Of a stretch of 64,000 nucleotides of DNA, positions 4,728 to 64,000 are shown piece after piece. This DNA is from Tubiluchus corallicola (taxonomy: Eukaryota; Priapulida; Priapulimorpha; Priapulimorphida; Tubiluchidae), in the NCBI GenBank assembly GCA_030141605.1, contig JAQGDQ010000118.1:186001-250000 (forward strand), written 5' to 3'. The notes beneath the pieces were generated by a model. It did not search any database and had not been told where the DNA came from. It was given only the letters and a program-made list of their open reading frames with translations. Position 1 is the stretch's first letter. Each line of letters starts with the position of its first letter. The position numbers and the translations under genes were made by a program.

Positions 4728-4842
4728 AGTGGTGTTGGTGTTGGTATTAGTAGTGGTAGTGCTACTGGTGGTAGCAGTGGTAGTGGTAGTAGTAATAGTA
4801 GTAGTAGCGGCAGCAGCAACAGCAATAGTACTACTGTAGTAT
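4728..4842. repeat. Degenerate trinucleotide (GGT/AGT/AGC) repeat
   Basis: A run of ggtgtt, agtggtagt and agcagc-type triplets, imperfect throughout, about 38 units. No associated gene frame is supported. Confidence 0.85.
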
Positions 4843-6255: not shown

Positions 6256-6280
6256 ATATATATATATATATATATATATA
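6256..6280. repeat. (AT)n microsatellite
   Basis: Uninterrupted AT dinucleotides directly beside the palindrome at 6,202-6,255. Confidence 0.95.
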
Positions 6281-11313: not shown

Positions 11314-11327
11314 GTTGCCATGGCAAT
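11314..11327. promoter_or_regulatory. Second X-box-like palindrome
   Basis: The sequence gttgccatggcaat differs from the ideal RFX palindrome GTTGCCATGGCAAC only at the last base. The surrounding 100 bp are less AT-rich than the neighbourhood. I see no exon with good splice sites on either strand within about 200 bp, so this may be a distal RFX site within an intronic enhancer, or chance. Confidence 0.35.
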
Positions 11328-18019: not shown

Positions 18020-18142
18020 CAAAAAATTAAATTGTGATACGAAACTTGAAAAACCGAAATTGTGAAAAAGCTGGAACGCAGCCTGGATTTGAACCAGGAA
18101 GCTTCTGCTTACAAGACAGACCACTACGACCACTAGGCTCCA
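18020..18142 (-). mobile_element. tRNA-derived SINE copy (minus), half of an inverted pair
   Basis: Read on the minus strand from 18,142: a tRNA-like head with a duplicated tagtggtc A-box region and an anticodon-arm-like segment with loop CTTGTAA (TGT, tRNA-Thr-like). Then comes a perfect 5-bp T-stem cctgg/ccagg around ttcaaat, with B box ggttcaaatcc at 18,085-18,095, followed by a tail with ctttttcacaattt. The acceptor stem does not pair, so this is a SINE and not a tRNA gene. Confidence 0.65.
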
Positions 18143-18170
18143 GTGATAGGGGAGTAAAACTGGAGAATAC

Positions 18171-18268
18171 GGTAGCCTGGTGGTCTAAGGCACCTACCTT
18201 GTAAGCAGAAGGTTGCTGGTTCAAATCCAAGTTCTATTCCAACTTTTTCACAATTCCTATTTTCAAAT
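18171..18268 (+). mobile_element. tRNA-derived SINE copy (plus), half of an inverted pair
   Basis: This is the same family as the copy ending at 18,142, but on the plus strand and head-to-head with it across a 28-bp gap. It has A box tggtctaaggc (18,181-18,191), cttgtaagcag anticodon region, B box ggttcaaatcc (18,218-18,228), and the same ctttttcacaatt tail after 18,241. The pair could form a long imperfect hairpin if transcribed. Confidence 0.65.
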
Positions 18269-43133: not shown

Positions 43134-44159
43134 CTCTAAAATACCAAAGAAATCTGAAAATAAAATAAAATAAAATGAGTAAAGGAAAAATGAATTAAAT
43201 AAAATATGCATGTCGATAAAGACGACACGATCATAACATATTTATATTATTTATTTTTCATGTTTGTGGGCTTAATGACAATATCAAGCCTACAATGTTT
43301 ATTTTTAAACTTTCTTAGCAAACATTCGTGCGTATGTACTAAAATGGTTCAAAATTCTCGGCTCGATGGCATTTCTGAGAAGGGCTTACATTTTGCAGCT
43401 ATATATATACATATATTTATATGTATCTTACAAACAAACTTAATTCCAATAGGGGATAAGGCTAGCTATGCCAAAAATTAACCAAAATATAAACACAATG
43501 CTCAATCAAAAAAAATTGAAATGAAAACAGCTTCACTAAGAAGTGTTACACAAATAAGTGTATGCAATTGTTTTCTTTTTGTTGCTAATAAGTACTGCAT
43601 ATTTTGCGTTCAAGTGTAACCGCCATACTCAATAACAGCTGTATCAATTACATGTGGCTGTAGAATGCACTGGTAACCAATTCTAATATCTTCTAATTAC
43701 ACGAAAACCGAAAAGCAAAAGTTTTACATACCACAGAAACGTATTTAGGTAAACTAAGTGCAACTGTGTATGTGAACAAATGACCGACAATACCCACAAT
43801 ACTTAACACGTTTAGTCCACTGGATGAACCAAAGCCAGACAATGCTAGTCACAATAAGTACGAAGCAGGTTACATTAACTTCCCAAATTGAGCGTTTGTT
43901 TTGTTTCCCGAAAGGAAAACTCATTTATTTACAAAAACAAGAACACTAAGCTAAATTCCACGATTTTTACACTCGACAGGTTCCAAAAATATGGAAGACG
44001 ACAAAACTAAACTGCACTTTTACCTCGTTTAAAGTTAAACCTGAGGGTATGGACAAAATATTACAATATACATGTACATATACTATTACAATTTGTCATC
44101 ACATAAAAAGAAACACTTGTGATACGAAATAACTCTGACTGATGAAAGATGCACTTCAC

Positions 44160-44173
44160 GTTGCCCTGGCAAC
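44160..44173 (+). promoter_or_regulatory. Perfect RFX X-box palindrome (promoter of the interleaved gene)
   Basis: The sequence gttgccctggcaac fits the RFX consensus GTNRCC-N2-RGYAAC at every position, and its two half-sites are perfect inverted repeats. RFX factors use such X-boxes, usually within about 150 bp of the start codon, to drive ciliary genes in animals. Here the site ends 94 bp before the proposed ATG at 44,268. The motif is seen directly; activity as a promoter is an inference. Confidence 0.65.
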
Positions 44174-44267
44174 CAAACATCTCATCGAGGAATGTTCAGC
44201 AAGAAGGACACCTTCTCCAGTCGAGGAAGTCAGCAAGCAGTTAGAAACAAGCAGCAATCGCGCCAAG

Positions 44268-44292
44268 ATGTCTCGATTACACTCAAGAAACG
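44268..44292 (+). CDS. Interleaved plus-strand gene, first coding exon
   Basis: The proposed start is ATG at 44,268 in a good context (A at -3, ccaagATG). The exon encodes MSRLHSRN plus one base and ends at the near-perfect donor AAACG|gtaagt, so it exits in phase 1. The second exon restores the frame exactly. An RFX X-box sits at 44,160-44,173, about 95 bp before this ATG, the spacing typical of ciliary gene promoters, and I therefore prefer this ATG. An in-frame upstream ATG at 44,142 has no stop between it and 44,268 and would add 42 residues, but it would lie above the X-box and so probably outside the transcript. I do not recognise the protein. The first 26 residues are strongly basic and Ser-rich, with no signal peptide or membrane segment. 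Confidence 0.62.
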
Positions 44293-44989
44293 GTAAGTAT
44301 CTCATTACTTAAACGAGTCGGTGAGTCTTGGATGGTACTCACAGTTGAGAAAGCAGTTGCAACTTCAACTCCTCAAACATGTGCAGCTAAACGCTCTTTG
44401 CAATTGACGTTTTCCAGCTCAGTATAAGAGTAATCAGTTCAGAAATTCAGAGCCAAGGGTACATTCACACGCAAAAGCTCACGCACGCACACATGCACAC
44501 AATTATTTATGTATTGTGGAGCTGCAAGGCTTTCGCGTTTATCTATGAAAAGCTAATATCAAGCTGAAAAGAATTAATGTTACACACTAAAATAACATCG
44601 GATGAAGAGCATGAATCGCCATTGTATGGCATACTATCATATAGATATATCATAATCACCGTGTGACGTTACTGGATGAAAGACAACTGCAACGACCACT
44701 GATTTCCACAAATTGTAACATGAGTGCTAAGTCATTATTGTAATTTGACGTGAAATTACGTAAATTATGACAAAAATACACATTGCACTACTTGCTAGTT
44801 GTATTCAAGTGTTGTCTAATCCAAGGATACTTAGCTTTTAATTTTTAAATAATTTTTAATTAGGGATATTTTTAAGCTTCGCACAAATAAAGAGATATGT
44901 CAAGTTATAACCTATTGAAATACTGAAACCTAACCCCTTGCAAATATATCTCGTCTTTTTTCCTCTTAACGTTGCTCCTCTGGTTGTAG

Positions 44990-45042
44990 CAACCATGTCC
45001 AAGGCATCACGCTTCATTTCTTTGAAGTTTAAAAAACAGGAG
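44990..45042 (+). CDS. Interleaved plus-strand gene, second coding exon
   Basis: This is an internal exon on the plus strand. The acceptor follows a long pyrimidine tract (cttttttcctcttaacg, then ctcctctggttgtag) and the donor is CAGGAG|gtgaga. Entering in phase 1 with the G left by exon 1, it reads ATMSKASRFISLKFKKQE and exits in phase 0, which is exactly what exon 3 needs. It is 53 nt, so 25+53 nt of coding gives 26 whole codons. The peptide is basic, with a Lys/Phe-rich end. Both splice sites are close to consensus. It lies about 0.7 kb after exon 1 and about 0.9 kb before the minus-strand AUTS2-like mini-exon C. Confidence 0.66.
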
Positions 45043-45906
45043 GTGAGAACTGTCCCCCAGTCGACTATTTCCATTAATCATAATGGCGACCTAGCCGTCA
45101 GACACGTAATACACTTAGAGGAGGATATGAGGTCATGCTCAAGTGCTGTCACAGCAGTATGACTGATTAAGCTTCAGATTATATCCAAGTGTTTGTAGTC
45201 GCATTATTGTGCCGATTAGTGTGCGGTGTTGGCTCAGTCGCTAATAGGGATATTACATAGCGCGTGAAGACGAAATTGAGCCTAATAATAATCAGTACAG
45301 CAAAGACTCTTTAAAAGGGCCGCAGGGTGAATCAGACGCAGCTATTGTGCGCGAGTCACAGAAGTGTGAAAAATATCAATATTCTTAATACATCAAAGAA
45401 AAACGAAATGTAGCTTGATGATAATTACCATGGGGTAAAAATGAAGCCTGGGTGTTATGTTCTTTAAAAAGGACGTACCCGATTGTGAAAACGACAAGGG
45501 CAATATGGTTGTGCATTTTATTTGATGCTGAGTCAACATTTAAAAAATGTTTTTTACACATAAAATGCAGAACCAAACAACACCGCTATGCATTCCAATT
45601 TACTTTCATTTACTACATTCATTCGTCTCGTAAACCACATCTGGTATTGACTTATAGGCATCCCATTCAATACTGTACATGTTGCAGAATTTTCTACATA
45701 AAAGTGAACATCTCTCGGCATCGCCAGATAAATATTACAATTGGTCATCGTCATCCTGCTGTATACGAAATGCGAGTAAGCATTTTTTAAACGATGCTGA
45801 TTCGTACTTGCGTTTACTAAAATTTGATTAGGATTGCAAAGCGTTTTCAAACATAAGCACATGTTATTTATACACACAAGGCGCTTAAACATACATAAGT
45901 ACTTAC

Positions 45907-45942
45907 CCTATCACGCTCGTCTTCACTCCGTTCACTATCACA
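45907..45942 (-). CDS. AUTS2-like: AUTS2-like gene, mini-exon C (12 codons)
   Basis: This second 36-nt, phase 0-0 exon on the minus strand encodes CDSERSEDERDR. The acceptor is gttttttctttttcag, with a long pyrimidine tract, and the donor is GATAGG|gtaagt, which is close to consensus. It lies about 5.9 kb downstream of mini-exon B. It aligns with CDSDSDQEEKAS in vertebrate AUTS2, the acidic Ser/Asp/Glu segment that follows GTGYF; the leading CDS is identical. The exon is inside the second intron of an opposite-strand gene (exons at 44,990-45,042 and 47,094-47,238), so the two transcription units are interleaved. The following exon of the AUTS2-like gene was not found at lower coordinates; 45.9 kb of intron-like DNA follows, in keeping with the very long introns of this family. 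Confidence 0.78.
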
Positions 45943-46139
45943 CTGAAAAAGAAAAAACAGATAATGTACGAAAAAATGGCTGGCAAAAGTCGTTATTTTC
46001 AATAACGCTTGAGATTTTAAGAGGTCTCAAACGTCAAGATATCTGCTAAGTTTGTATTGCAATTACACAATTCACTAATAAATAGGCTTATTTATTTCAA
46101 ATTAATTCCTTCCAAGCAAATTATAAAAGCCACTACACT

Positions 46140-46880
46140 GCGGGTCTTATGCCACACTGACGTATCTTGAGTGATTAGTTCAACTGCTAATATTCGAATT
46201 CGTAGCTAAGTAAACGAGTACAATAAACCGCCTCACAGTGATAATGCTGAATGGCTTAATCCTTCCTCTATAAGAAACTTGTAGTTAAGCCGGGAATTAA
46301 AAATGGCGATGAAGATGGCTACAGCCTGAATTGCGTTTTTAAATCCCATAATACCGCTCTTGGGATTAAATAGATTTCGACTTCAATTGCGAAAAACGCT
46401 CAAAAGCGACGAAGGAAATTAGATTGGCACGTTAACGGCGGGCATGAACGTTTCAGCTTGTACTGAGTTTGTTTGCAGACAACGTTTATTTTCTTCTATC
46501 ATCCTATATGCGGAATTGATCCACGCGCGGTGAGCGCGGGCGCGTAAATATAGTTTAATCTTTTTCCGCTAAGCAGTGCGGATTAGAATTCTGAAAGCAT
46601 CTCGGCTGAATTGGAACGGTTTTGTCGGGTTTGTGACATGTGCATCCAATTTCAGTCGCAATTAGTTTTTTCTGGCTTCGACAAAAGCGATTAGTTTCGC
46701 TGAGGAAGCCCGTCGCATCCAGATTGGTCGGCGAGAGTAATCAAAAGCCATTATTATCGATGTCGTTTGAAACGGGAGGCAAAAACGAATGAAAAGCTTA
46801 GTAAACGATTGATGTCGCTTCAATGAAGACACTCGTCAAGGGCCAGTAGGATCTAAGGCGCTCTTTAACAAACGAAATCT
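46140..46880. promoter_or_regulatory. CpG-rich, homeodomain-site-rich block (candidate conserved enhancer)
   Basis: This is the most striking non-coding block in the window. In an AT-rich intron it is markedly richer in GC and CpG (for example gatccacgcgcggtgagcg and gcgggcgcgtaaat) and nearly free of simple repeats. It has K50-homeodomain sites TAATCC at 46,257-46,262 and GGATTA at 46,363-46,368 and 46,580-46,585, plus several ATTA/TAAT cores and an ATCGAT. No reading frame is sustained. Such composition is typical of ultraconserved intronic enhancers of developmental genes, and vertebrate AUTS2 introns are known to carry many. Conservation itself cannot be judged here. Confidence 0.42.
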
Positions 46881-47093
46881 ACGCTACTTGTGATTGTCAG
46901 AAGAGCTTGAAGATTTGCATTACACGCAAAGTGCAGAACGAAGCTTAATGTTTCACAGAAGAGAACAAAGCAGGGCTTTTAATTCTAACGAATGCACTTA
47001 TGTAATTACATTACCACCTTCTTTATTTCTTACACTGGGAGCAGTAACATAAAGAAAGTATCTTGGAAGTTGTACCCTATATTTTCTTGGCAG

Positions 47094-47238
47094 AATCGGG
47101 GCACATTAATTATGACTAAAAGCCTAAACGTCAAACAACGACCTCAAAAAGGGTTAAATGAGAAGGATGCCTTCCAAATGATTACAAGTAAATTAGTGGG
47201 AAAGAAAACTTCTGTGCGTGATCACAAACAGTCACCAG
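47094..47238 (+). CDS. Interleaved plus-strand gene, third coding exon (48 codons)
   Basis: This 145-nt exon has acceptor accctatattttcttggcag and donor CACCAG|gtatgt. It enters in phase 0, matching exon 2, is open, and exits in phase 1. The peptide starts NRGTLIMTKSLNVKQRPQKG, continues through LNEKDAFQMITSKLVGKK, and ends SVRDHKQSP. It is Lys/Arg/Gln-rich and looks like real coding sequence rather than AT-rich noise, with no Cys, no hydrophobic segment and no recognised domain. With exons 1 and 2 the predicted N-terminal 74 residues are basic and probably largely disordered. The X-box upstream of exon 1 suggests a role at cilia or the basal body, but the sequence alone gives no function. 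Downstream exons are uncertain; a phase-compatible candidate is at 53,469-53,552. Confidence 0.68.
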
Positions 47239-48439
47239 GTATGTGACTAAGCTAAGCCTGAGTGAAATAAAACGTTTAATCAGTCACTGGCACACAATAA
47301 TAAGCACAACATATTAAACAGTTACAACTACAGCTACATGCAAGCACTTTAACAATTTACTGAACAAGACAATAAAGTTATTAACAGAGATAAAATATCA
47401 AAGTCGGGACAAAAAACTGAAAAAAACAGAAGATTCTGAGAATGTCTGTCTGTAATAAAATTTGTGTACAACTGCGCATCAGACTGACCGACTATGCATG
47501 CAGCCAATGTTCTAAACGACTTGCAGACATCTGAGCTACTCGCACTTGTAACGTTCATATCCACAGCGAAGAGATGCTCTCAAATTCAATATTAAATTCT
47601 GCATCAAAAGAAAGGAAACTCTTCATTGCGGCTTGAAGACGACGGCTCTCGAAGCCAGGCTGAACAACGTTCGCATTATGGCAAAAACAAGCAGCATGCA
47701 TTGTGCCGGAAGTCATCTCCCCGCCCCGCCGCAAGCAGTCGTCGAGTAGGCTTCTCTTTTTGTTATTACTTCCGAACAAAAATGCAATTTGTCTTGAAGA
47801 GTAAAACGCTGACAGCCCTGAGCGGGTCACAGATTTCATAAACTAATCATGGCGAAAAACGATAATCTACTGTTACTGTGCTACAACGCAACGCAAAGAA
47901 GCAGCCAGTATGTTTTAAGCTGATATACACGTATTTTTCGTTTCAAATATTATAGTATGTAGTTAGGTCGCCGGACAGTATTCAAACCGGGCTGCCAATA
48001 TCGAACTACGAGTCTGGTGCATCAAGGTTCATCACTTCTCCCACTGTTTGTACACAAGAAGTCCCATGGGGCGTCTGTTAGAAAAAGTACAACTTGCTTG
48101 TCATTAAAGCCATGTTGTCTGACGCGTCACAGAAGTGAACATTAACTTCAGATGACAAACCGCTCTGCATACCAAGACACAAAGTCGGCGCTTTGATGAT
48201 TTTAATTGGCAAAGATCTTACCTCACGTTTTTCCTTAATCAGCAGCAAAGCATATGGTATTCAAAAAAAAACATAAGCCTAATGACATGCATGTATAAGA
48301 CAGTATCTGTCTTAACAGTACCTTTTGAAAACATACTCATATCTTAGTCAGCTTAGACGACGTAGTGTGCTACGGAAAGTTTGCAGCTGGTACACTTTTT
48401 CCTATGAACGTTCAAATATGGCAAAATGGCACGAAAAAC

Positions 48440-48860
48440 AAAAAGGTTGCGCCACGTGCGCCTGACAGCTAATGTCAACTGCACAGCTCATCAATATTCT
48501 GCTCACTAAACGCCCGATGGATTCTTTTATCATCCTATTAATAATGCAATGTCGCATCTTTATTGGCCAATTTGTTAATTATGCCAGCAACCTAACGAGT
48601 CTGCAGCGTCCTTAATTACGAAATTGCCGTCGCATCTTCGGTTAATTTGAGCGCCGTGAAGCGCATAATGAAGACGCAGGAGATGCGTCGAGGACAAGAC
48701 AACAGATTTACACTATTCTGATTAATTGCTCAATTAATTAGAAGAATCGTGGTTGCATTAGAGTGTTAAATTCAGAATGCGGTTCCCAGCTAATGAAATA
48801 AAGTACAATTACTAGCCCCAGTAGAGTAAATTAATCACCATGGCAACGGCGAGCGACAAA
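48440..48860. promoter_or_regulatory. TAAT/CpG-rich block (candidate conserved enhancer)
   Basis: The block is dense in homeodomain/POU-like cores: attaataatgcaatg, ggccaatttgttaattatgc, ccttaattacgaaattgcc and gattaattgctcaattaatt. CpG-containing words (gtcgcatc twice, gcgccgtgaagcgc, gatgcgtcgagg) are interspersed, along with a cacgtg E-box at about 48,454. It has no repeats and no coding frame. It resembles the block at 46.1-46.9 kb and lies in the same intron. Confidence 0.4.
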
Positions 48861-49779
48861 GTTAGCGTGTAGGATAAAACCATCTCACTGATAGGAAGAG
48901 GGTGCTAGCCAACTGGAGGCAACACTGGGTGACTAACACATTCTGCTGTCTCCCAATGTTTCTGCATAGAAGATATGTGAGGTTCCTTCATAATTTCATC
49001 TAATTTCATAACTAGGTAATTTATTTCGCTCAACACTCAACACGTTAAAAGACCCTTGCGAATATACGATCAAACCAAATATCAATCAGGTTGTAATGTA
49101 ACAACATTTTTGAGTGTGGAATTTTAAATGCGTATATAATGGTTGTTGAGCTTAAATTAAGTTTCGTTGTTCAATTCAACTACACTATAGAATTGATTAC
49201 CAACTGACACAGAAAGAGTAGGACATTTTTAGTGTCGCGAACTTTGAGTGAAATGTTAGAGATTAGGCTGTATTTCTAGCCAATTTGAATATACTCTGTA
49301 ATATTATAATTAACTGAATTAAAGTGTAGCAAAAACGTTTATTTCGGATAAGAAGTGAAACATAACATAATCTCTCTTTATCTTGCAATCACACACACAG
49401 ATATAATACAAATAATAATTTGAAAAACATTTTGTGAAGAAGGGGCAGCGTAAGACAAGTTGGTCATCTAGTCAGCTCCCTTTGGTTAGTCATGATCATA
49501 TTTTCTGACGCTGTACTATTAGTGTTACTAATGCTTATGGTTAGAATTTAATTCTTATAAATGACATTAAATTAAAAAAATACATATGAGAAAATATAGT
49601 TAATTGATAACAGGTGAGGTAATAATACATGTATAATAACCCAGTAATAATAGCTGTATAATAAAAAAATCAAACAATAACTGAGAGGCTTATATTATGC
49701 GTACATTTATTATCTCAAATTTCAATACAATTTGCAAAAAACACCACTGCGGCAAGACTATTCTGTGCTTTTTTCACAG

Positions 49780-50180
49780 TTCACTAGCTCGTGAAAATAA
49801 AAGCGTGGCGCAGAGAAGCCAGTGAAGCCGAGGTTTATACGCAGTTAATTGCCTATTAGCCGCCGCTGCCGCTTGTTCGCCGCGTTGTTTTGTGTGTTTT
49901 AAGCAGTTTCGAATCGATACGAAATTGCACTGTAGGCTAAACACAATCTTGGTGTAATTTGTTCAATGGATGTCGGGGGAAATGGTCGAAGCTTACGGCT
50001 TAATCCGGTTTACGGCCGGACGCCGCGAGTTGCGTGCAACCGCCATACACGCGTTTTTATCGCCCGCCATCAATGCGGAGAGCAATCTACAGTTAATTAA
50101 TTGGTTAGCCTAGGAGAAATGTGACTTACATTAGAAGCGACACGTGACCGCACAGCTTCCGCATCTCACACAAAGACCAG
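49780..50180. promoter_or_regulatory. GC/CpG-rich block (candidate conserved enhancer)
   Basis: This block has high local GC with many CpGs (gccgccgctgccgcttgttcg, and tacggccggacgccgcgag), a TAATCC at 50,001-50,006, and ttaattaattggtt near its end. No open frame has good splice sites. It is the third such block in the same 5.9-kb intron, and the clustering supports a regulatory reading over chance. Confidence 0.4.
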
Positions 50181-50479
50181 GAGCGCCGAGCTTGCTGGCA
50201 CGAATGCATGTATCAGGATAGTGTTAGAAGCTGTTGTAGCAACAGTAATGTTATACTTAAGAACTAGAACTAGACCTACATATCATTCTGAAGCGCGCAT
50301 TTTAGATTCTAAGATCCTCACAGAGATGTCTGCCTAGAAGCTTATCGCTACAATTTACACACCTACTGCGACGTTACCATATCTTGATAGCATCGCAGGA
50401 CAAAATTTAGCAATTTTCTATTTCTTATATTAACAGTAATAATATTAGTGTACAAATTAGCAATGTTGATAAATCATTT

Positions 50480-50600
50480 TTTCCTTCCTGCTTTCTTTCT
50501 TCTTTTCATTTCTTTTCTTTTCTTTCCCTTCCCTTCCTTTCCATTCTTTACTTTTTCTTTTTTCCTACGTTTTCGTTTTCTTCTTTTCTGTTTTTCGTTT
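50480..50600. repeat. Polypyrimidine (CT-rich) tract
   Basis: About 120 nt almost entirely of T and C on the plus strand (ttccttcctgctttctttct and onward). It is a long purine tract on the AUTS2-like sense strand. Confidence 0.9.
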
Positions 50601-51310
50601 AATTTTTAATCATTTACACATTTTGAAGAAAAAAAGGAAAAGCCACGATTCATGAGCGCAGGCAATTATGCATTGGTCAGCTAGTTCATAGTTGATCAGT
50701 CAGTAAATTTAATCAGTCACTAACAAACCGACTAACCAATCAATCATTTTCTCTAGTAGAAAATACTCACTGCCTAGCCAATCAGTCAATGATTAGCCAA
50801 ATACGATTACGATATCATCCTGTAAAATGTTTAGCTCTTCAAACAAAGAAAAGTTGGGAGAATTAAAACGCAATTACAGTTACAATAACGAATAATCATG
50901 CTTATAGGATTACAGTCTGCTGCATTATTCATGGATAACTGATTGAAGGATTCAGTTATCTGATCTTTGCAAGTTTACTGCTGGCGCCTGCGTAGAGGCT
51001 CCTACTGTTGATGTGAATGCTAATCTTTGACAGAGCGGAGGAAATTGAGAGCCAGAGGCGCTGACCAGAGGAAACCTGCTAAATACCAACATCATCTGTA
51101 CTGACTACTGACAATTGACACAATTCATGGAGTGGGGAATTAATTTGACAACTTGAAGCGACAGTATGGGGGATCATTAAACTAACCAAATTAGGGACAA
51201 AATGAAATGGGTTATACTTTAACGTCCACAAGCGGTAAATAGAAAAGTTACAACAGGCGCGTGGAACTAATGCGGAGAAACAAAGATCTAAAGCACTGTC
51301 AAAACATGAC

Positions 51311-51392
51311 TTCAGTCAACAGAATAATTTTGGTTTATTTGGAATTTTTAATTCAGTCAACAGAATAATTTTGGTTTATTTGGAATTTTTAA
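51311..51392. repeat. Perfect 41-bp tandem duplication
   Basis: Copy 1 is 51,311-51,351 and copy 2 is 51,352-51,392, both beginning ttcagtcaacagaataattt and identical over 41 bp. Identity without any difference implies a very recent event or an assembly artefact. Confidence 0.95.
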
Positions 51393-51837
51393 TACAATTC
51401 GACTCAAGGCAAGATAGAATCCAACACTGAACAGTATGGCCCACTAATAAAGTCAAATAGCTGTAGCGGTACTGCACCTTAACTTGTCATCAAAAAAGAC
51501 CCACTTAGACGAGACTCAATGAAATTCACAGCGGTGTCTTAGAATTGTTCAAATGTGTATACATGCACCCTTAGCAAAAAAAATTAAGCAGAGATAGTAA
51601 GTATGGTAGAAACATTAGGAGGTCGCCTATGCATTTACTAACTAGGCCTGTTATTGCTTAACTATGTAGGCAAGTGCTACATGGCTTTTCTGGGAAAAAG
51701 GAACACAATAAAATACACACAAAGACATAAGAATGTGTACTCATAATTTCAAGGACATGCACATGTTAAGAGCAGCTCATGCACATTAAATTGCAAACGG
51801 ATAAAAAAATAAAATAATTTAACAAAGGTATCCTTAC

Positions 51838-51873
51838 CATATAACCTTTCCCAGAACTTGGCCTTGAACTACA
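51838..51873 (-). CDS. AUTS2-like: AUTS2-like gene, mini-exon B (12 codons)
   Basis: This is a 36-nt internal exon on the minus strand, phase 0-0, encoding CSSRPSSGKGYM. The acceptor is attttgtttcatttcag and the donor is TATATG|gtaagg. It lies about 5.4 kb downstream of exon A. It corresponds residue for residue, without gaps, to the 12-residue stretch of vertebrate AUTS2 that I recall as [12 protein letters not shown], which directly follows SSRERLSD. The shared features are Ser-rich composition, G-x-G-Y and a bulky hydrophobic last residue. Because it is 36 nt and phase 0-0, skipping it would not disturb the frame, so it is a natural candidate for alternative (perhaps neural) splicing. It is far too short for a standard ORF finder. 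Taken alone it would be weak; its value comes from flanking splice sites of the right phase and from collinearity with exons A and C. Confidence 0.78.
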
Positions 51874-53468
51874 CTGAAATGAAACAAAATAAAAGAAATT
51901 AATTAAAATTTCTACGCAGGCATGTCATGCTTGGCAACTAAAATGACAATGCAGAGCTAAAATTATTAAGCAAATAAAACTGGAACGACAAATTATAAAT
52001 GCAAAAACGTCAGCTAAAAAGGTAAAGTATTTAAGCGAAATCAGTACCCGCACCAGTTCAGTGTTATACCGTCATTATGCGTGTCAATGAAATCCGCACT
52101 TTATATTAAGAACATTTATGTTAAGAACATTTATAAAATATACATTATTTTATAAATGATGTTAGTTCTTAGGCCAGCTTATATTTTGAAGTGGCAAAAT
52201 TAGAACACGTAAGTTTACATTGGGCAAAATTCACATTACTTAGATCAAAAATACGATAAAATAAAAAAAAAACAATAAAATATATACAAAGTGTAGATTT
52301 ATCAAAATTAGGAGAGATCGCTGAACTAATGTAATGATGTTTTATAAGGATCTGTTAAATTTGCAATATTTTAACAAGCAAGTTTCGGCTAGTTTCTAAC
52401 TAAAAACTGATATTTCAATTGATTTTATTAATGAAATTCATAATAGCCGATGGAGATTTCGAAATTCTTGAGAAGTGGTTAGGTCTACTGATATCTTATA
52501 TCAGAATAAATTTAAATTTATTAGGTGGCACGAGTTCATGTATGCACGGCAAACATAGCTAGACTATTCCGCATTATGACGAGACGTGACAAATTTAAAG
52601 CAGAAAGACATTACATCGTTTTTCAATTTGCGTCTCAACTTGTGACATTGAATTTAACCTCTACGTTTTACACAACTGATTTCATCGCCTCTCCGAGGAA
52701 GAGAAATCTTTCGATGATTGATTAAAAACCAGCTGACAACAAATCATGCTCGAATTCTGGTTTTAACATAATTTACAATTCAGTTACATGCTGGCCATTC
52801 TGTGCATGTGTGTGAGGAATGCTGTGATATAAACACATGTAAATAAGTGAGAGATGACTGTACTGCAAAATTTATGTTACAGGAACACTGTCCCTGGAAT
52901 GTCATTAGTGTGCCCTCCTTACTTAATAACAGCTGCTTATGTTGTTCACACACAAACTAATTGTAACCTTTGGCATGCCATTGACAACAATATATTTATT
53001 TTATACAAAATTCTTAATTTTGACAATAAAATGAAACTAGTAAACATGCAAATAACTTTATAAAGACAAAATTTATAAAACATGATTGAAGAAAAAAACA
53101 GAGGAAACACGATAGTGTTCTGTATAAAATTATATAATGTATCATTTTTATTACTATTTCATTGTTATGAAGTTCCTTGTACTTGATTTAGCTGAAAATT
53201 GGCCATTTTATTTGTCATTTTCACTTAGTCTCAGCATAAAACTGTTACTTGGCAAAATTACGAGTCTGCTGCGGCACCTGGTGTGAAATGTGATAAATTT
53301 TTCGGTATTAACGCACGACTTTGCAAATGATGCAATTATTACAAGATTGTTAGTGCGGCTTCTGCTAAATAGTGCCCTCTGACAAATACCGCTGAATAAT
53401 GTGGAATGTAATAGGTAGCATAACATTAAAATTGTCCAAACAAGAGAAATATATTCTCAAATTTCCAG

Positions 53469-53552
53469 CTATCCACAACACCACAATTTCGAAATTTCTA
53501 ACTGAAGATGGCGCCAGCTGTTCAATATTCCAGTATTATCATCACTCATCAA
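53469..53552 (+). CDS. Possible further exon of the interleaved plus-strand gene
   Basis: This candidate exon would enter in phase 1, as exon 3 at 47,238 requires. The acceptor is atatattctcaaatttccag (moderate) and the donor is CATCAAC|gtaaga (good). In that phase it is open for its whole length and reads AIHNTTISKFLTEDG and onward, then exits in phase 2. It also contains aagATGGCGCC, so it could instead be a separate 5' exon starting MAPAVQYSS. A second strong donor, GACAG|gtaagtg, follows at 53,588. No family match is seen, and other phase-compatible short stretches exist in the 47-53 kb interval, so this is only a candidate. Confidence 0.22.
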
Positions 53553-53767
53553 CGTAAGACAGAAAGCACGCGTTTTGAACGACAGACAGGTAAGTGTCAC
53601 GACGGTAAAATGCTACTATGGTAAAAACAAAGACAAAAAACGAGCGAAAACCTTTTGAACTGCAAGTCAGTTTGTTCCAATGGTAGTGTGAAGTGCTGCT
53701 ATAAGTACAGCCCAATCCGCAGTTCAAAAGGAAGACTACCGCGTGTTACTACTACAATCAGTGTACT

Positions 53768-53771
53768 GAGA

Positions 53772-53848
<77 letters not shown>

Positions 53849-53885
53849 AGGGAGAGGGAGAGGGAGAGGGGGGAAGAGAGAAACG
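53768..53885. repeat. (GA)n plus G-rich microsatellite
   Basis: About 33 GA units, then G11 (53,838-53,848), then ggagaggg units. It is a purine-only strand of more than 100 nt that could form H-DNA or G-quadruplex-like structure. The Arg/Glu-repeat ORFs across it are artefacts. Confidence 0.95.
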
Positions 53886-54769
53886 GTGAGAACGAGAGGA
53901 AAAGAATGAATAAGTCGATTGAAGAAAAAATGAGGAAACACTAAGAAAATGGGAAAGTAAAGAGATGGGGAGTGTACAAAAAGCGGCAAAACAGCCAGTT
54001 ATTTTAATTTACCTAGATGTTTGTTTAACTGCCTGAATTAGTCACAGCATTATCTCAGTTTATACATAGGCAGATTATATCACGCTCTTATTATATTGCT
54101 GCTCTCTGAAATACCGATATTTTATCGGGACATCAACTTATCAATCATTTAACTTGTTAATATTGAAACGAGGCACTCATGTAAATGTAGCCAAAGTAGT
54201 TGTAGTGGGACTTAGTCAGCTTAAGTGGGCTGTGAATTAATGGTTATTTAAACACGTCAGGTGCGTGATCTAACTCAATAATTTCGATGTTCCAAAACGA
54301 GGTTCGGTCAGTTCTCTCAAAACATGGCCCGGTCAAATACGCACCAACTTATAAAGGAGGCAAACAAAAATACTGAGACTTAAAATAGTGATATCTGTGT
54401 GATAGGAAAGCAAAATAATTATTCAGCTTTATGCCATCTATCGAATAACATGAAAAAAAATATTAATCTAATCAAATGACAAAATGAATAGGCCTACAAC
54501 TAACGTTTTTAAATTCACTGGACTGACTGGAGTAGTAAACAGTAATATTCAGTAACGAACTAAAAATTAGATTTATAATATTTATACTGTATAACAAAAA
54601 CTGATGTAAAGTTCATTATGATTTATGACGTCACTTAATATATTGGGTTGTGTTTAGGTTTATTTTGCTACAGTAAGTTATGTAGTGTTCAATATGTTTA
54701 TTGATAGGCAGTATTGCTATATCTATTAAATTACTATAAATTTACAACAACTTAAATCAGGGACGTTAC

Positions 54770-54910
54770 CGAAACGAAAATTTCGTGCCGATAATTGCAC
54801 TTTCGGTTCAGTTTCTTTTTCGTCAAAAATGACTAAGTTTGACTCTTTCGACAATTTTCGGTAGATTTTTCTGAGGTTTTAGTAGTATTTATCCAATTTA
54901 CCAGTTCTTA
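54770..54910. repeat. Dispersed repeat, copy 2
   Basis: The segment ggttcagtttctttttcgtc ... gaggttttagtagtatttatcca matches the 34,990-35,115 copy in the same orientation with scattered differences and small indels. Confidence 0.6.
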
Positions 54911-55924
54911 GATGAAAAGATTCCTGTATGCCAACTTTCTTACGTATTTTAATTATGACACTTCAAGATTCATAGATGTTATGTAAGTCTAGTTTTACGG
55001 TTTCTTCATGACATTTACAACACTAGAAACTTCTTAAACACAGTGCTTTGCATGTGTCTTTGACACTCACTACAAAAGCGATTCAACTAACAGATGCACA
55101 TTCAAAAACTAGCAAGTGTGCTAATTTGCAAAGGTACACCACTGTTGTGTTAGTTAAAGACTGAAATGGCAAGAGCTGAAAATTCGTTTTGAGATGTCCT
55201 TAGCTAACATTATAAAAGGCACGTGGGTTTCAGTTAGGTATCCTAAAATGTGCACATTTGAATCCGGATTGGATAGTATATAATGACTTAAGATATTAAT
55301 GAGATGAAGTCGTCCTAATGGTAAATGTATTTTATTTTACTGTTAAAGAAATCAAAGCTCGATGAGTTGTCATTGGAATTCCATTAACAATATGATTTCT
55401 GTAGTTATGTTTAGACCAGTGATGTTTACCAGAATCACAAGCGCGTAAAAACTTAATTTTTAGCAGAAACTACATTCTTACTACGTTGTTGTATTTTGTT
55501 CCTGATGGTGTGGGTGAGACACCAACTTGCACGACACCAAATATTAGCAGAATACAAAACACCACAAATCATCCCGCAAAAATCTTAAAAATACCTTTAA
55601 CCTAATATCTGGCCATCTAGATATTCTGACAGATTCCATAATAATGCCAAATTTCAGTTACATTTAGCAGTGTTGAACTTATATGGTAGAAACTGACTGA
55701 ACAACAGCAGTAGCATCAATAGCACCAAACAGAGAATTTCTCATGACCATAAAGTGTTTTTTATGGCACAGTAGAAAATGCACATATAACGTGTAGTGAC
55801 TTAGGTCTAGAACACATCTAAATTATACCAGGTATCTTTACTTTGTAACTGATTAAAGACTTTGAAGCGTTAACAAATATTATAAAAACTGCTGACAGAT
55901 TGGCTAGGAGATGTGACAACTCCA

Positions 55925-56382
55925 AATTTTTTTAGGTGTATTTGCCTTGCTATGAAAAAATCATTTGAGTGTTCTACCTCAAAGTGGCATGCTTGTATTT
56001 TATTTGATTTCATATCTACCTTAGTGAAAGACTTATTGCAGTTTGAGAACACTAGCTTCTCTGTGAAAAATTACTTTTTATGGTATCTCATGGTATCTAA
56101 AGTGTATGTGAAAACCCAATAAGTTTTCAGTGTACAAGCTTCGTGGTGCAATGCCAATTTATGCAGCTGTGTTAGCATCACCGGTTTTAAGAGCACCTGC
56201 GTCACCATGAAATCACTATTTGAATATCTCAGGACATCAGCCTCGTTGCAAAAAGTCAAATTCTGAGTGTACCCGTCTCACTTTGAAAAAGTACATTGTT
56301 AATGCACCTGCTTCACTGTGAAGTGTCGGAGAAACCCTTTTGGATGTAAATTTTGGATTGCAAAACAGAACTTTTTTATGCA

Positions 56383-56447
<65 letters not shown>

Positions 56448-56490
56448 ACGCGCGCCAAGCGATTTTTAATGTACCAGCTTTTCTGCCAAT
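55925..56490. repeat. Cryptic degenerate ~40-bp tandem repeat array
   Basis: Copies of a motif close to tgagtgcacctgcttcactg followed by tgaaaa recur near 55,927, 55,964, 56,008, 56,041, 56,126, 56,183, 56,258 and 56,297, and again at 56,464 after a (TA)n insertion. Spacing is roughly 35-45 bp or a multiple. Identity is low, so this is an old minisatellite. Short overlapping ORFs on both strands here are by-products of the repeat. Confidence 0.55.
56389..56444. repeat. (TA)n microsatellite
   Basis: Uninterrupted TA dinucleotides, about 28 units, lying inside the cryptic ~40-bp repeat array. Confidence 0.97.
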
Positions 56491-57293
56491 GGGTATGAAC
56501 TGCAGCATCACTTGTGATGGAAGAGCCGCTTACTCAATTTCATGTCACAATGTATCTTAAACAAAATGATGAATGACTACAGTGCTAAGCTGCATTTTTT
56601 TACAACCACGTGGGTTCCTGAGCACAAAACAAAGTACGGACTGTCCAATTTTTTATTGCTTTATGGCAATACCTTAAAGGAAACGGCAAGCATTCTGCAT
56701 AATTAGGCTTATTTCAATGTTTGCGAAAAATGTTGTAGAAGGATTTAGTAATAAAAATGTGATAAGTGCTTCGTGCAAATAGTAAAATCGCGGATCATTT
56801 CATGCTTGGACGCTCCTATTTTGAACTCCCATTCTTCCACCAATGACGTTGTAAACAAACTGAAGAAAAGGCACGCTTTGTCAAAATGTAAAATGTGCTG
56901 TCAAAAGTATTATAAATTTTTACAAAAAAACAGACAGCTAATTTTGTGACATGGCGTGTTCACATGTTCACTAAGTGACCTGCACAAGTTTGAATTAGTT
57001 TAAGCAACGCACACTTACGGAAAGTCACGAAGTCCACCAGTTACGTCATAACTTTTAAGTGAATGGCGACTACCACTGCGCTTGAAGATTTTTATAAAGT
57101 GGTAGTATAAATTAACTTTATGCTTTATAGAGAGTTTTTTGCAAATTTCTTTGTTACGTGTTTTTTCCTTCAAACAAAACACTTGGCCCTTGAATTCTTT
57201 ACGTGGGTCATTTGTCTCGAGTTGGATCTTAATTTATATATCTATATGTACAGGTAATGTACGCCTAACTAGAAAAAAGAACCATGAACTTAC

Positions 57294-57455
57294 GTCTGAG
57301 AGAGGGTCCCGGGAGCTTACCCGTAGTGGTCCATTTAACACAGGTGTGGAAGCTGGCCGCGTATTCTCATCATTGTGGCCGAATTCACTGCTAGCTGACG
57401 GTGTACTACCATCACTGTTATTGTTATTGTTGTTGATCATATTGGCACTGTTGGT
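57294..57455 (-). CDS. AUTS2-like: AUTS2-like gene, coding exon A (54 codons, internal)
   Basis: This is an internal coding exon read on the minus strand. The acceptor is ttttgtgtgtttcag just above 57,455, and the donor is GAC|gtaagt at 57,294/57,293. The exon is 162 nt, phase 0 at both ends, and open throughout. The peptide starts TNSANMI, has a run of six Asn from an AAC/AAT trinucleotide repeat, then a Ser/Thr/Pro-rich acidic stretch (SDGSTPSASSEFGHNDENTR), and ends LRVSSRDPLSD. The last eight residues SSRDPLSD match the SSRERLSD that I recall in vertebrate AUTS2 upstream of its DSDSD acidic segment, and the next two exons continue the match. Vertebrate AUTS2 is a nuclear non-canonical PRC1 component and also has cytoplasmic roles in neuronal development. 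This piece belongs to the disordered N-terminal third, so it shows no fold or catalytic residue. Splice structure is seen directly; the family name rests on short similarity and is an inference. Confidence 0.8.
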
Positions 57456-59799
57456 CTGAAACACACAAAAACAATGCTACAGAAATTTATATTTACACAA
57501 TATTCATAATATGCCACCAAAATTGATAAAATTGGTTGCACAGAGACTAGAATGCCACAATATGCAACACATGTAATTTCCAAACACACTGTTTGTGATA
57601 TACTAAAATTACTAATTAAGACACAAGGAGTAGTTAAATGACTTAATGTTGGTCAACAATTCAATCATTTTATCAGTTACAATAATAGTTGATATTAATA
57701 ACATTAATGACCAAATGCTGACTTGTTATGAACACCCTTTGATGTTATATCATCATACTGTGTATAGACAATGATTTTCCATACTAGCAAATGTTTATAA
57801 ATGAGAGTACTATACTTATGCCCCAATTTGCTGAAGTAACTTAACTAACTCTACATTTGCTGGAAGACTATCAGTAAATTCAAAGTGTCATACATGACAT
57901 GGACACTCAGTAATACACTGCTAAGTTTCCCAGATTTTACTGTACGTTGGGGCAATAAAAATTTGATGATGCTACAGGAGTTGAAAAAACGAACTTTTCA
58001 CAACATGCAAGGAAAAATCAATACATTAACACTAACAAAGAATATCATTAAAAATAATGCCTATGGGTATAAAGCTGTTCTTACAGCCACTAACAATCAG
58101 TGTAAGCTAGAGAAATGTCGCGCTAGTGTCTTTGGTAAAATTTCTTTTGTCGTCACCATCTGGATTGTATATAATTATAACGGTGCTATTTTTGTAATTC
58201 CAATATTAATAAATGATTTAAATAGGCTGTCAGTCAACTAATCATTCAGTTTCAAATATAAAATTTCACATTGCACATATACAATGCACTCTTACAATGT
58301 TTCACACTGGCACTTTCTTTAACTGTAAAGTAATAATGTTCGCAAATCAATAATTCCAGCAGTTTCCGAACATTGCTCCAACAAATGGAAAAAGATTTCC
58401 AATAATTTGTTCTAAAAAAGAACGTAATTCATTTAGTGTACACAGTAGCTGAATTACATTTACGATAGATTATTACGTATCATCTCATCCAATAAAGAGC
58501 AATATTACTGCAATAAGCAATTAAAAGTGAATATTCTCATGAAAGACCACAGAATACACGAATCAGAAAATGTTTTATTCTACGAGTAGCTGAAATTAAA
58601 CAAGCCTAAGAGACTGTAACACATTTTTCCGAAGATTCACCGTCTGGGCAGTTTTTTAGACTAACCTTCAGATAATTATTCTCTTGAAACACAGAGCACT
58701 TCTCTCGCAATTTCTTATTAGTCTTTTAAACCTTAACACTTACATCACAATTAAGACCAAATTATGCATTTGCTATAAATTCATAATATAGATAAATGAA
58801 ATTTTTATTAACTAGTTAAAGTCTTACGTATTTTCTATTCCTGAATATTAGCAATTGAGTTACCTACAACTAATATTACGACAATTATAAAAATACTGAA
58901 AATGAAAACAAATGTTGCAGAAACCGTTCAAACAGCTGTTAAATACAGTAGAATTTCTCCACGTAAAGAACAATTAGTTAGTTACTTAAAGTTTCACGTT
59001 GTTCAAGTTTTGTAATTTCTAATCAATTATGACCAAAGTTAGGAGAAATCTGAAATTTCGAGCAACTTAATTCAGCTTTTTACGATCTTGCATCGCAATC
59101 AGGAGATTGCATTACTGTCATTTACTGTATTATTAGTATAAATGCTCACTTATTTAGTCGTTTATACAAACATGCCAATTGGCTAGACATTTTAAGTGTT
59201 TTGATCAAATACTTCAGTGAATAAATAAGTATGTGTTTAACAAAAACAAAAAAAATCACAATGGCCAAGCATGAGAAGTACTGCTTGTCGATCAATTACC
59301 CTTAGGCTTATTAATACTAGGCAGGTAGCAGATTACCATTATTCAGGTACTAGGCATGTATCAGCTAGGCGTACAGGTAGGGAATTCGTGCTAATTAAGT
59401 CTGGGGAGTATAGAGCTGTTATGAAGGTCATTCAAAGATGGTAGAATCAATGATGTAAAGACCAATATCAGGGCCAATAAGAGGTTTCAGAGCAGGACGC
59501 AGTATGTGTCGTTTAAAAAAACAAGATATTTGTTCGAATGCGATTGCTGAGCGCCGGGCAAGTGAAAGTGTACGTATATATACTAAACATGTGAAGTTTA
59601 TGAAATTTAACATTACTCAACAGATCTGGAAAGATCTAAGAGCTCACACATCACTTACAAAGTTTTCTCTGAATGACAACTACATGTATAATTTACTCAG
59701 ACCAACTTCTTAGATTCTAAATGACGTTTGGCCTTGCGATTAGCGCCTCTGTGATTTAAGAAAAAGGCAACTACGTACACTAGACAAATCAACTCGTAG

Positions 59800-60600
59800 A
59801 TCCCATATGAGGCCTACGCGTTCCCCGTTTAGCCTGCAGTCTCAGAAATCATATCTAATGCTAAATTGCAAGTTGACACACATTTGACTACGCTGCAATC
59901 ATAGGGCAATGAAAATAGCTTTCTTTTACACTTGTTATAACTTTCAGTTCTTTAGTAATATAGGCATTGTAATTTCACCACAGTGGTATACTATAGACAC
60001 TAAGTCTTGCGCAATAAGTTTTAAGCTATTGTATCCTTAACATCTTTACTACAAAATGTAACATTTCTAACAAGAATGATTGCTCTTGCTGCAAGAAGAC
60101 ATTTTTGTCTCGTAATATCCTCATTATCAGTGGCCAAATTTGTTATAATATGTCTTAGATATTTATCCGAAAATACAGGTTTCCGAAACACAACTATTTC
60201 AATAAATGTCAGCAAAAGGTATCGATGTCATATTTTGCGGAGTAATAGTTAGTAGAATTGTCTTTGGGAGTTCAAGATGACGTCATACTTCTTAGCAAAC
60301 ATTTGATATGTATCTAACAACGTAGTCATTGACCTTACTGCATTAGAAATCAAACAAATATCATCAGTGAAAGAAAGGTGATTCATAAACAAACCACTAA
60401 TCGGACAACCGGCGTGAGCATTGTATAAATTAAAGTTCAAGTCACTAAAATAGAAATTGAATAGCTACGGATATAAAATTCCTCCCTGCCTTTACACTTT
60501 TACCAACATAAAAATTGCTTGAAGTTTACCCCACCGAATGCAAAGACTTCGATTAATATAAAAATATGCCAGCAGTCTGACAATAATTTTTAGCAAATTT
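59800..60600 (-). mobile_element. Degraded non-LTR retrotransposon (LINE) reverse-transcriptase relic
   Basis: On the minus strand, conserved blocks of a non-LTR reverse transcriptase appear in order, broken by stops and frame shifts. First is RQGGILYP (stop) LFNFYFSDL at about 60,440-60,503 (usual form RQGGILSP-LFN-Y-DDL). Next is MNHLSFTDDICLIS, with the catalytic YADD replaced by FTDD at 60,360-60,371. Then come KYLRHIITN and DITRQ near 60,130-60,164, and after a frame shift LKTYCARLSVYSIPLW at about 59,985-60,030. Weaker similarity continues toward 59,800 and up to 60,600. The order and spacing are those of many marine-invertebrate LINEs. The element is inactive: stops, frame shifts, and no endonuclease domain in view. 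Confidence 0.85.
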
Positions 60601-61390
60601 TAAGGGAACGCACAGTGATAAGACTACTAATCTATTAAAATTAAAATCAAGATGAAGTGATCTTGGCATGCACTACGGATGTGCCAAGTTTAATTGCTTT
60701 TGCCTCAACTGCCTTTTATAATGTGAAACATTCAACACGCACTGTAAAAACTTCGAGGTCAAAAATTCAAGGTCAAAGGTAACATAGTGAACCTTCCCCC
60801 AATAGTACTAAGCACTCAATTTGATTTACTTAGGCCAGCGGCCTAGAAGAGATAATCTTTTGTTAGAGTACAAAACACTAAGTAACAGTACAGAATAATT
60901 TACTACATCAAAGTACTGCTGAAACAATAGAGAAGCTATCATATCCCCAAAGTTCAGTGCGAAAGTCCGCGCGTCTCGCGGAGCCTGCAGTCTTGACTTC
61001 TTGAGGGGCGTGGTTGGAGCGTGACCTTGAAAAGCCTGGGATTAACTTTTTTCGAATGGTATGGAAATGGGAAATTCACGGGACCTCAATCTCGTCAAAC
61101 ACATTAGAACTATCTTGAAAGACAGAGTGGATGCTAAAATGAGCCATTGAACACATTCAACAGATAAACTTGCGAGACATTTACAAGATACGTTAGAGGA
61201 TCTTTATTTTTCGAGTCACAGTTCCAATCATACGCTCAAAACTGCAGACTGGCAGAGACGTCTACGTTTCCACATCAAATTTTGAGTACTCGCACTATTA
61301 TATGAGCAACACTTCGATGTAATACGGTGTTTTGTATTAGTATCTGATGTCTTTGTTCCAGCAAAAGTTTATACACTACCTTGTATACAA

Positions 61391-61612
61391 CACCTAAAGC
61401 AAGATCTGAGCAATCAGAACGAATTTGAACACCTAAAGTAAGATATGAGCAATCAGAATGAAGTTCAACACCAAAAGATCCGGGCAGTCAGATTGAAGTT
61501 GAACACCTAAAGTAAGATCCGAGTAATCAGAATTCAACACCTAAAGTGAGATACCAGCAATCAGATTGAAATTGAACACCTAAAGTAAAGTTCGAGCAAT
61601 CATTCAATGTGA
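61391..61612. repeat. Minisatellite, about six units of 34-39 bp
   Basis: Units start at 61,391, 61,430, 61,469, 61,504, 61,538 and 61,577 with a shared core cacctaaagtaagat, then gagcaatcagaatgaa. Unit lengths are 39, 39, 35, 34 and 39 bp. Units are imperfect and the repeats are adjacent, with no unique spacers. Confidence 0.9.
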
Positions 61613-62074
61613 AATCGAAGTTCAGCTGTGTCGTAGTGCTTTTTTTCGCTAATCACGGGTGGCAAATGTCAATTTTAAAATTTTGAAAAATACGAGAAAC
61701 GTTTCTAGAATTTTGATAAATTGCTACTGTACGATAGGGAAAATAGCGTGTCACTTATATACCCTTCTCAACACTCATGTTTGTTTTTCTACAATTTATT
61801 CATATCTATATGTATAATTTTACTGAATGTCAAACAAACTGAAATCAAATTAGTACTACTACACGTGCGACAAATTCTACTAGATAGGCCCTTAAAGTTT
61901 TAAAGGAAACATGCAAAACGTTTAGGCGGATTTCTTACACGTGGCAGTCCATTTTAAAGGACAACTACAAATTCTAGTAAAAAAACAACCCAGAACCCCA
62001 GATACATTCATAATAACAATAGATATAGTTATACTCGGATTTATACAAATAGAATAACTACAGGTAAACACCGA

Positions 62075-62402
62075 TTTTTACCGGAAATTGTTTATACGGC
62101 TAAAAAAATCACTAGAAAATAATAAACTAATATATATATATATATATATTAGTGACTATATTATTGACTGATATATTATATCATATCATATCATATCATA
62201 TCATATCATATCATATCATATCATATCATATCATATCATATCATATCATATCATATCATATCATATCATATCATATCATATATCATATCATATCATATTA
62301 TATTATATCAATATATATATATATATAATGATCAAATATATGTAGTGGTTTATTATTTTCTAGTATTATTTTTTAACCTGTATGAACAATTTCCGGTAAA
62401 AA
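62075..62402. mobile_element. Fold-back/MITE-like element with a (TCATA)n core
   Basis: Inverted arms at 62,075-62,127 and 62,348-62,402 are near identical: ttttaccggaaattgttnat at the outer ends and ctagaaaataataaac at the inner ends, with a few mismatches. Between them are (TA)n tracts and a long TCATA pentamer array. No coding capacity. It resembles non-autonomous invertebrate elements that carry a tandem array between inverted arms; the family is not identified. Confidence 0.65.
62177..62300. repeat. (TCATA)n pentanucleotide satellite
   Basis: Twenty perfect TCATA units at 62,181-62,280 plus a few shifted units (tatcatatcatatcatat) at the right edge. It is the loop of the fold-back element at 62,075-62,402. 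Confidence 0.95.
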
Positions 62403-62916
62403 CATATTCATATATGCATAATGTACGTAATTATAGATACATATTATATTATCCATTTATTAAGTTAACACTGCACAATTTCTCTTATAGCGTTGACTTG
62501 ATGTGTCTTCATGAGATGATGATTTACAAATTTTGTATGTTACAGTTCTGTATGTACATGGACACACTGGCATTGCATATAAAAATCCAATGTAACGTAT
62601 TTATATCACACTTGCTCATAGCGTTTTTTAAATCATGTAAATTGGGCGTATACACTATGCAGCCTCATATGCAAACAAACCAAATTAATTACAAATTATG
62701 TGACAATTGACCAGAACACGTGGCCACGAGCCCAATTAACGCAAAGAAAGGCAAAACCATGCCGTTGTGTATTGTACGATCACGTTCTTCAAACAGTAAA
62801 GTTGACGTAAATAAGCAGAAACCCGCCCACTTGAGAAATAATCCGGTTCACAGCAACGCAATGAAATGAACGCGTAAAGCTCTTAATTTATTATTCCATC
62901 AAATTATTAAGAAGTT

Positions 62917-62997
62917 TGGAGAGCGAGCGAGAGAGAGAGAGAAACAGGAGAGAGGGGAGGGAGAGAAAAAGAGGGGGGGGGAAGGAAAGGGGAGAGT
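62917..62997. repeat. Purine-rich (GA/G) tract
   Basis: Plus-strand purine tract beginning with gagcgagcga and (GA)n and passing through a G9 run. A few non-purine bases interrupt it. Confidence 0.9.
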
Positions 62998-64000
62998 TGA
63001 CAAATGCATAAATGAGATCCTTAATCACGAAAATTTAGTATTAATTTATTTGGTGAAAAACAACAAAGTCATACAAATATATGTTTCTCTCTGCTTCCAA
63101 TTTTGAATAATACGAAAAATAACAAGTGCTTTACACAAATTCCACAACGGCGACGTCCTCAGAAGGCAGGAATCCTGACATTCATTGATTTCGTTATAAA
63201 ATTACACACCAAATTTTGTTTAAACTATGATAAACTGAAAAGAATGGTTACACTGTAGACTTTCGAAGTAAGCCAAACACTGCAAACTATAATACTGGTG
63301 TTATAAACAACAAAATTATTCTTCACTTATTACGCTGATACAACACAAATACTTCGAACTAAGATAATGTACTGATAAACATAATGTATAATTAGTAAAT
63401 GTGTAAATTTGTCACTGATTTTCAGCATTAAACCAAAAGTTAACATCAATTTTTCTTTGTTTGAAAGTAAATAAAATGCATCACAAAGTTGAAGCAACAG
63501 TGGTCCAAACGAGACTTTCTAATTTAAAATCGTTCCATAATGATAATTCCAGCGTTTAATGATTGATCACAAACTGATTAAAAATTCAAACAAGCTTTAA
63601 TCCTGTACTGCATTGTAAATGGCTAGCAGAAGAAAGTATTATGACAGCATGTGACCTCAATGCTTTTGACAATCACTACTTCACTTGTTGACAGCTCTAC
63701 CAAAGATCAACATCTACCTAGCCAACTTTGCAACGCCATTATTATACAAAGTGATCTCACTAATGCCAGACGTATCATCATCGTCATCGTTTCCTAACCT
63801 AATACGGCTTATATAGCGCGAGACAAGGGCATCCTTAGGCTTGTACGCGTGGCTAGCTCAGATTGACAATCGATACGTGTATAAGCAGTGAGAAATAGCT
63901 CCCAAATGCTTTCACTGTACGTTCACGCGCTACACAAATACTACTGGATGGTGGGCTTCCTCATAAACAACTGATGAAGCCACCAGCACGTGCTGCACTA

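Follow-up and report, generated by a model that had tools for sequence, protein, structure and literature searches.

A perfect X-box and a candidate plus-strand exon chain interleaved with an AUTS2-like gene in Tubiluchus corallicola

The stretch of DNA analyzed here, hereafter the window, comprises 64,000 nucleotides of Tubiluchus corallicola and corresponds to bases 186001-250000 of a 585-kb contig, in an assembly of 343.5 Mb and 2344 contigs. Flanking sequence was added on both sides (40 kb to the left and 200 kb to the right), giving 304,000 joined letters, 5,000 of which are N. Coordinates preceded by w extend the window numbering both ways and are negative to the left. Splice sites were scored in bits with a position-weight model. 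The features at the locus are collected in Table 1.

Table 1. Features of the X-box locus and of the two gene models that share it (window positions)
Feature	Positions	Strand	Basis
Perfect X-box (RFX site), GTTGCCCTGGCAAC	44160..44173	.	Letters; genome-wide counts
Alternative ORF, 33 codons plus 2 bases in exon 1	44192..44292	+	Earliest ATG downstream of the X-box
Proposed first coding exon, MSRLHSRN, ending in phase 1, donor GTAAGTAT	44268..44292	+	Donor 5th of 3302
Proposed exon 2, ending in phase 0	44990..45042	+	Frame and splice scores
Microexon of the AUTS2-strand gene, CDSERSEDERDR, inside plus-strand intron 2	45907..45942	-	Splice scores
Proposed exon 3, ending in phase 1 at a GTATGT donor	47094..47238	+	Frame and splice scores
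Extension if exon 3 is terminal: stop TGA at 47244-47246, AATAAA at 47266-47271	47239..47271	+	Letters
Weak candidate exon 4, phase fits	53534..53589	+	Best plus-strand donor (8.8), poor acceptor (0.5)
135-nt exon, phase 0 to 0, upstream of the microexon	57321..57455	-	Strand, phase, position

The preliminary description had placed an AUTS2-like gene on the minus strand, and this agrees with the match of the minus exon w-26350..-26545 to the Pfam family Auts2 (PF15336, E 8.3e-14). The AUTS2 exons of this strand are splice-flanked and lie to the left of the window; one of them, w-20999..-21234, contains a histidine-glutamine run that we take to be the one of AUTS2, and that Pfam does not score as such. 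Within the window, the microexon is 36 nt long (12 codons, phase 0 to 0) and is flanked by an acceptor of 6.1 and a donor of 6.4. No credible Pfam match was obtained with the microexon and the 135-nt exon joined. Pfam was run on the minus frames of 1-9600 and 44000-64000, and no Auts2 domain was found in 44000-64000. The assignment of the window's minus exons to AUTS2, a tentative one across the 66 kb from w-20999 to w45907, rests on their strand, their phase, the fact that no gene was recognized in between and a motif presumably shared with human AUTS2. Farther to the right, a T-box gene occupies the same strand, with an exon at w123k (T-box, E 2.7e-15) and presumably another one at w146k, followed at w236k by a minus exon that we take to be EIF4H-like (RRM only at E 0.15). 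A well-flanked, exon-like minus frame, w68509-68309, reading NLVHLAEEERAKILGVMKQENEVR..., lies in the interval that separates the T-box gene from the exons of the AUTS2 strand; neither Pfam nor PDB gave a match for this frame at E up to 1.

A few other features of the window are worth recording. A reverse-transcriptase remnant lies on the minus strand at 60560-60267 (RVT_1, E 0.00014, below Pfam's cut-off), and a degenerate tandem repeat of period 39 extends from 61389 to 61602 (5.7 copies, 75% matches). Rfam places two weak tRNA matches at 18074-18239, one on each strand and both scoring barely over the gathering threshold; they are perhaps tRNA-derived SINEs. At the locus of the plus-strand exons, a structured RNA was considered and rejected, Rfam giving no match there at gathering thresholds.

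RFX is the master switch of cilia genes, and the X-box is its docking site. The X-box at 44160-44173 corresponds to the RFX consensus without any mismatch, with palindromic half-sites GTTGCC and GGCAAC separated by the 2-nt spacer CT, and no other perfect copy occurs in the window; a near-perfect site with one mismatch, GTTGCCATGGCAAT, occurs at 11314-11327. Two ATGs lie 18 and 94 nt downstream of it (44192 and 44268), so the palindrome announced some 95 bp before the start codon is indeed there. In the whole genome, the perfect pattern GTTGCCNNGGCAAC is present in 125 copies and its reversed control in 2. Since the reversed pattern contains CpGs, expectations from Markov models of order 1 to 5, trained on the fetched contig sequence, were added; they amount to 6.3-8.4 copies. 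Perfect X-boxes are therefore 15-20 times commoner than base composition predicts, and about 93-95% of those in this genome are not due to chance. For the copy at 44160-44173, the probability of a chance origin comes out near 6%, leaving aside the exon chain next to it.

We also looked at a sample of perfect X-boxes, made of the first 20, the window's own excluded, among 50 places listed out of the 125. By eye, the flanks of the X-box at 44160-44173 are unlike those of all 20. Two of the sampled sites (L038 and L046) have common flanks, around 471-544, which suggests that a small number of perfect X-boxes are carried by a repeat, and another one (L045) falls inside an open frame of 311 codons, which means that a perfect X-box is not always a promoter. 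The X-box at 44160-44173 is probably a functional site to which RFX would bind.

On the plus side of this X-box, an ATG is followed by a 6.6-bit donor, which lies within 119 nt of the X-box. On the minus side, no ATG-plus-donor start above 0.2 bits was detected within 250 nt; a minus-strand gene starting from the same X-box was thus discarded, nothing usable being present on that side within this distance. The three proposed plus-strand exons had been said to keep one open frame through phases 1, 0 and 1 and to be bordered by near-consensus splice sites. Both statements hold, the joined exons forming a 74-residue frame and their three donors ranking 5th, 9th and 14th among the 3302 plus-strand GTs. 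The two acceptors of the chain are matched or exceeded in score by 64 and 49 of the 3571 plus-strand AGs. When an exon filter was applied to the plus strand of the 64 kb (acceptor of at least 2 bits, donor of at least 4 bits, length 45-400, open frame), eight entries were retained, some of them overlapping; exons 2 and 3 account for two of these entries, and another two correspond to frames of 46479-46529, within intron 2. The claim that the two genes are interleaved is also borne out, provided that both models hold, the minus microexon (45942..45907) lying within plus-strand intron 2 (45043-47093).

We then compared the exon chain with chance. With N read as T, the chain beside the X-box scores 25.5 and is the best three-exon chain on the plus strand of the 304 kb, the next independent ones reaching 24.5, 22.8 and 22.4; the minus-strand maximum over the same 304 kb, 29.1, is within AUTS2 itself. 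An alternative exon at 46479-46529 yields a chain of 24.4. In an earlier simulation, a comparable chain appeared in 1 of 300 strands, with thresholds that had been set at the observed scores after the exons had been seen. As such thresholds are flattering, we turned instead to the total chain score and admitted any three-exon chain at relaxed thresholds. Of 1004 simulated single strands of 64 kb, 48 then equalled or beat the score of the observed chain, hence about 1 window in 10 when both strands are counted. The exon chain is thus marginally beyond chance, which is suggestive and no proof of a gene. Its position directly after a perfect X-box adds weight to it.

On the other hand, strong donors are not enriched at the 20 other X-boxes. 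A donor of at least 5 bits is present on the better side of 5 of them, versus 18.1% of 3000 control positions (Mann-Whitney p 0.45). Similarly, ATG-plus-donor starts show no excess, with 2 of 40 X-box sides at 4 bits or more versus 6.1% of 2000 controls, and 1 of 40 versus 1.05% at 6.5 bits or more. A general rule in which an X-box would be followed by an ATG and then by a strong donor was therefore abandoned, this pattern not being seen at the 20 other X-boxes, and the donor near the X-box at 44160-44173 may be luck.

The coding signal was estimated with a codon table built from ten exons of the contig (476 codons) that we chose ourselves; it is a weak instrument, since 4 of the 10 training exons had negative scores once excluded from the table, and two of these, at -0.28 per codon, came near the background mean of -0.31. 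With this table, exon 3 scores 0.7 against a mean of -15.1, which places it in the top 5.2% of 1042 stop-free stretches of equal length. Exon 2 is in the middle of the background, 49% of 6464 stop-free stretches scoring as well, and the eight codons of exon 1 give about zero. The frame opened by the ATG at 44192, which differs from that of 44268 and overlaps the proposed start, is in the top 13.6% of 2482 stop-free stretches, better than exon 2; in the spliced model it enters exon 2 and stops after 47 residues.

The preliminary description knew of no family for the predicted basic N-terminus, and none was recognized here for the peptide. The 74 residues gave no match in Pfam, and no PDB chain was found at E up to 10 with the peptide queried in longer or slightly different forms. 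Neither database thus places the product in a known ciliary family, and short orphan peptides can escape both. In its own genome, the peptide matches only itself (2 matches, both self). This single occurrence rules against a retroelement or a duplicated gene, two origins that had been envisaged.

The 3' end of the putative transcript could be of two kinds. If the donor of exon 3 is read through, two more residues are followed by TGA, and an AATAAA begins 20 nt later; the chance of finding this signal within 25 nt is about 4%. Exon 3 may thus be terminal, with a product of 76 residues. The alternative is a continuation of the transcript from the strong phase-1 donor that closes this exon. The additional 3' exons expected on the plus strand did not materialize, none being convincing up to w125k in splice-scored lists examined by eye. 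The 54 splice-flanked open stretches up to w125k resemble noise by eye, as do 29 overlapping plus-strand rows of splice-scored candidates from w64k to w247k. The codon score of candidate exon 4 resembles the non-coding background. In all three plus frames of w47239-w84000, Pfam returned five sub-threshold matches and nothing else: Atrophin-1 (0.0035) and DUF3915 (0.77) in a GA repeat near 53.8 kb, ThiF (0.061), YxzE (0.002) and Astro_capsid_p (0.04). The next recognized plus-strand gene is SNF2/RAD54-like, at w248k (SNF2, E 2.5e-8).

Two observations concern the region of candidate exon 4. From 53508 to 53589, an ATG in good context (AAGATGGCGCC) opens a 27-codon frame that ends at the 8.8-bit donor, and this segment is possibly a separate first exon. 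The tail of the candidate exon also resembled what we take to be the N-terminus of a dynein intermediate chain (DNAI4/WDR78, with a D-V-T-P motif). This identification was dropped: no unsplit plus-strand DVTP occurs in w44k-w144k and no WD40 match in w47k-w84k.

Altogether, the proposal of an X-box-driven gene fares differently in its two halves. The X-box is very probably not a product of chance (125 copies versus 6.3-8.4 expected), whereas a transcribed, protein-coding gene made of the three exons and driven by it is plausible from the sequence and unproven. Because the chain score is reached in about 5% of simulated strands, the peptide found no relative in the searches described above and only exon 3 shows some coding signal, it is the X-box by itself that points to an undescribed ciliary gene.

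We propose as a tentative reading, to which we give slightly less than an even chance, that the X-box is part of an RFX-bound intronic promoter from which a short spliced transcript is produced on the plus strand, encoding an orphan basic peptide or remaining non-coding. The existence of a plus-strand spliced transcript at the X-box is a little more probable than its absence. In this view, the X-box, located within an intron of AUTS2, would be genuinely bound by RFX and would act as the promoter of this short transcript. With an RFX dimer on 44160-44173, transcription would begin some tens of bases further right. The RNA would be spliced from 44292 to 44990 and from 45042 to 47094, and would end either around 47.27 kb, after the AATAAA, or in an exon beyond those located. 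The RNA may code for a basic orphan peptide, some 74-76 residues long and produced by ciliated or sensory cells; alternatively, it may be non-coding. From RFX binding to promoter use, splicing, translation and any ciliary role, these are steps that we infer from the features described above. A more specific version, in which a lineage-restricted ciliary micro-gene encoding a basic peptide of about 76 residues would have acquired an RFX promoter born in the AUTS2 intron, its exons interleaved with the AUTS2 microexons, seems unlikely to us.

Another hypothesis is that the X-box is real and serves AUTS2 or long-range regulation, for instance as an intronic enhancer to which RFX would bind in neural or ciliated cells, and that the exons on the plus strand are splice-like matches that arose by chance in an open frame. 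Supporting this idea, the chain is equalled in about 5% of simulated strands, exons 1 and 2 display no coding signal, donors are not in excess near other X-boxes, and the X-box sits on the path of the minus-strand gene with AUTS2 exons. However, it does not readily account for an ATG and a donor ranked 5th of 3302 within 119 nt of the X-box, on its plus side, nor for a chain that outscores all others on the plus strand across the 304 kb. We hold this explanation to be doubtful, though a real contender.

One could also assume that the three exons open a known ciliary gene of greater length, the conserved domains being encoded further to the right. The strong phase-1 donor that closes exon 3 and the fitting phase of candidate exon 4 would be in keeping with such a gene, as would the basic nature of the peptide, basic, low-complexity N-termini being common in axonemal proteins. 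However, the plus frames of w47239-w84000 contain only the five sub-threshold Pfam matches, the splice-scored candidates beyond w84k look like noise by eye and the next recognized plus-strand gene is the SNF2/RAD54-like one at w248k, which makes this possibility improbable. Finally, a complete coincidence, with an X-box that would itself be a chance, repeat-borne or otherwise idle copy, could draw on the 6-8 of 125 perfect X-boxes expected by chance and on the sampled sites that look repeat-borne (2 of 20) or lie in a long open frame (1 of 20), but with a chance origin near 6% even before the exon chain is counted, and flanks matching, by eye, none of the 20 sampled sites, we judge it unlikely.

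Returning to the reading with an intronic promoter, such a transcript, if it exists, would be an RFX target missed by homology-based annotation and overlapping a neurodevelopmental gene, and it would offer a direct test of interference between cilia-gene transcription and the choice of AUTS2 isoforms. Should the micro-gene version be true, the activity of the RFX promoter could impede the splicing of AUTS2 transcripts within the same cells. A firmer by-product is the set of 125 perfect X-boxes, which provides a ready list of candidate RFX sites.

A parallel can be drawn with the RFX target genes of ciliated animals, for instance the Drosophila set of PMC2375033. The present X-box fits the restricted consensus GYTRYY N1-3 RRHRAC given there and stands upstream of an ATG, at 94 nt. 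According to the same paper, target prediction rested on conservation of the X-box in a second species, and an X-box of loose consensus upstream of an ATG was not predictive of RFX-dependent expression. Unlike these targets, the product predicted here is without a recognized ciliary family. Other known arrangements resemble the organization of the locus. Genes on the opposite strand can be nested in introns of large hosts, and the plus-strand exons likewise stand between minus exons of AUTS2 type; here, however, a microexon of the host strand is placed between plus exons 2 and 3, so that the two units interleave, in contrast to simple nesting. Likewise, presumably, AUTS2 has intronic enhancers and alternative promoters, which the X-box recalls by its position in the minus-strand gene. 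In contrast, the minus side of this X-box is without an ATG and usable donor within 250 nt, and it is on the plus side that the candidate exons follow.
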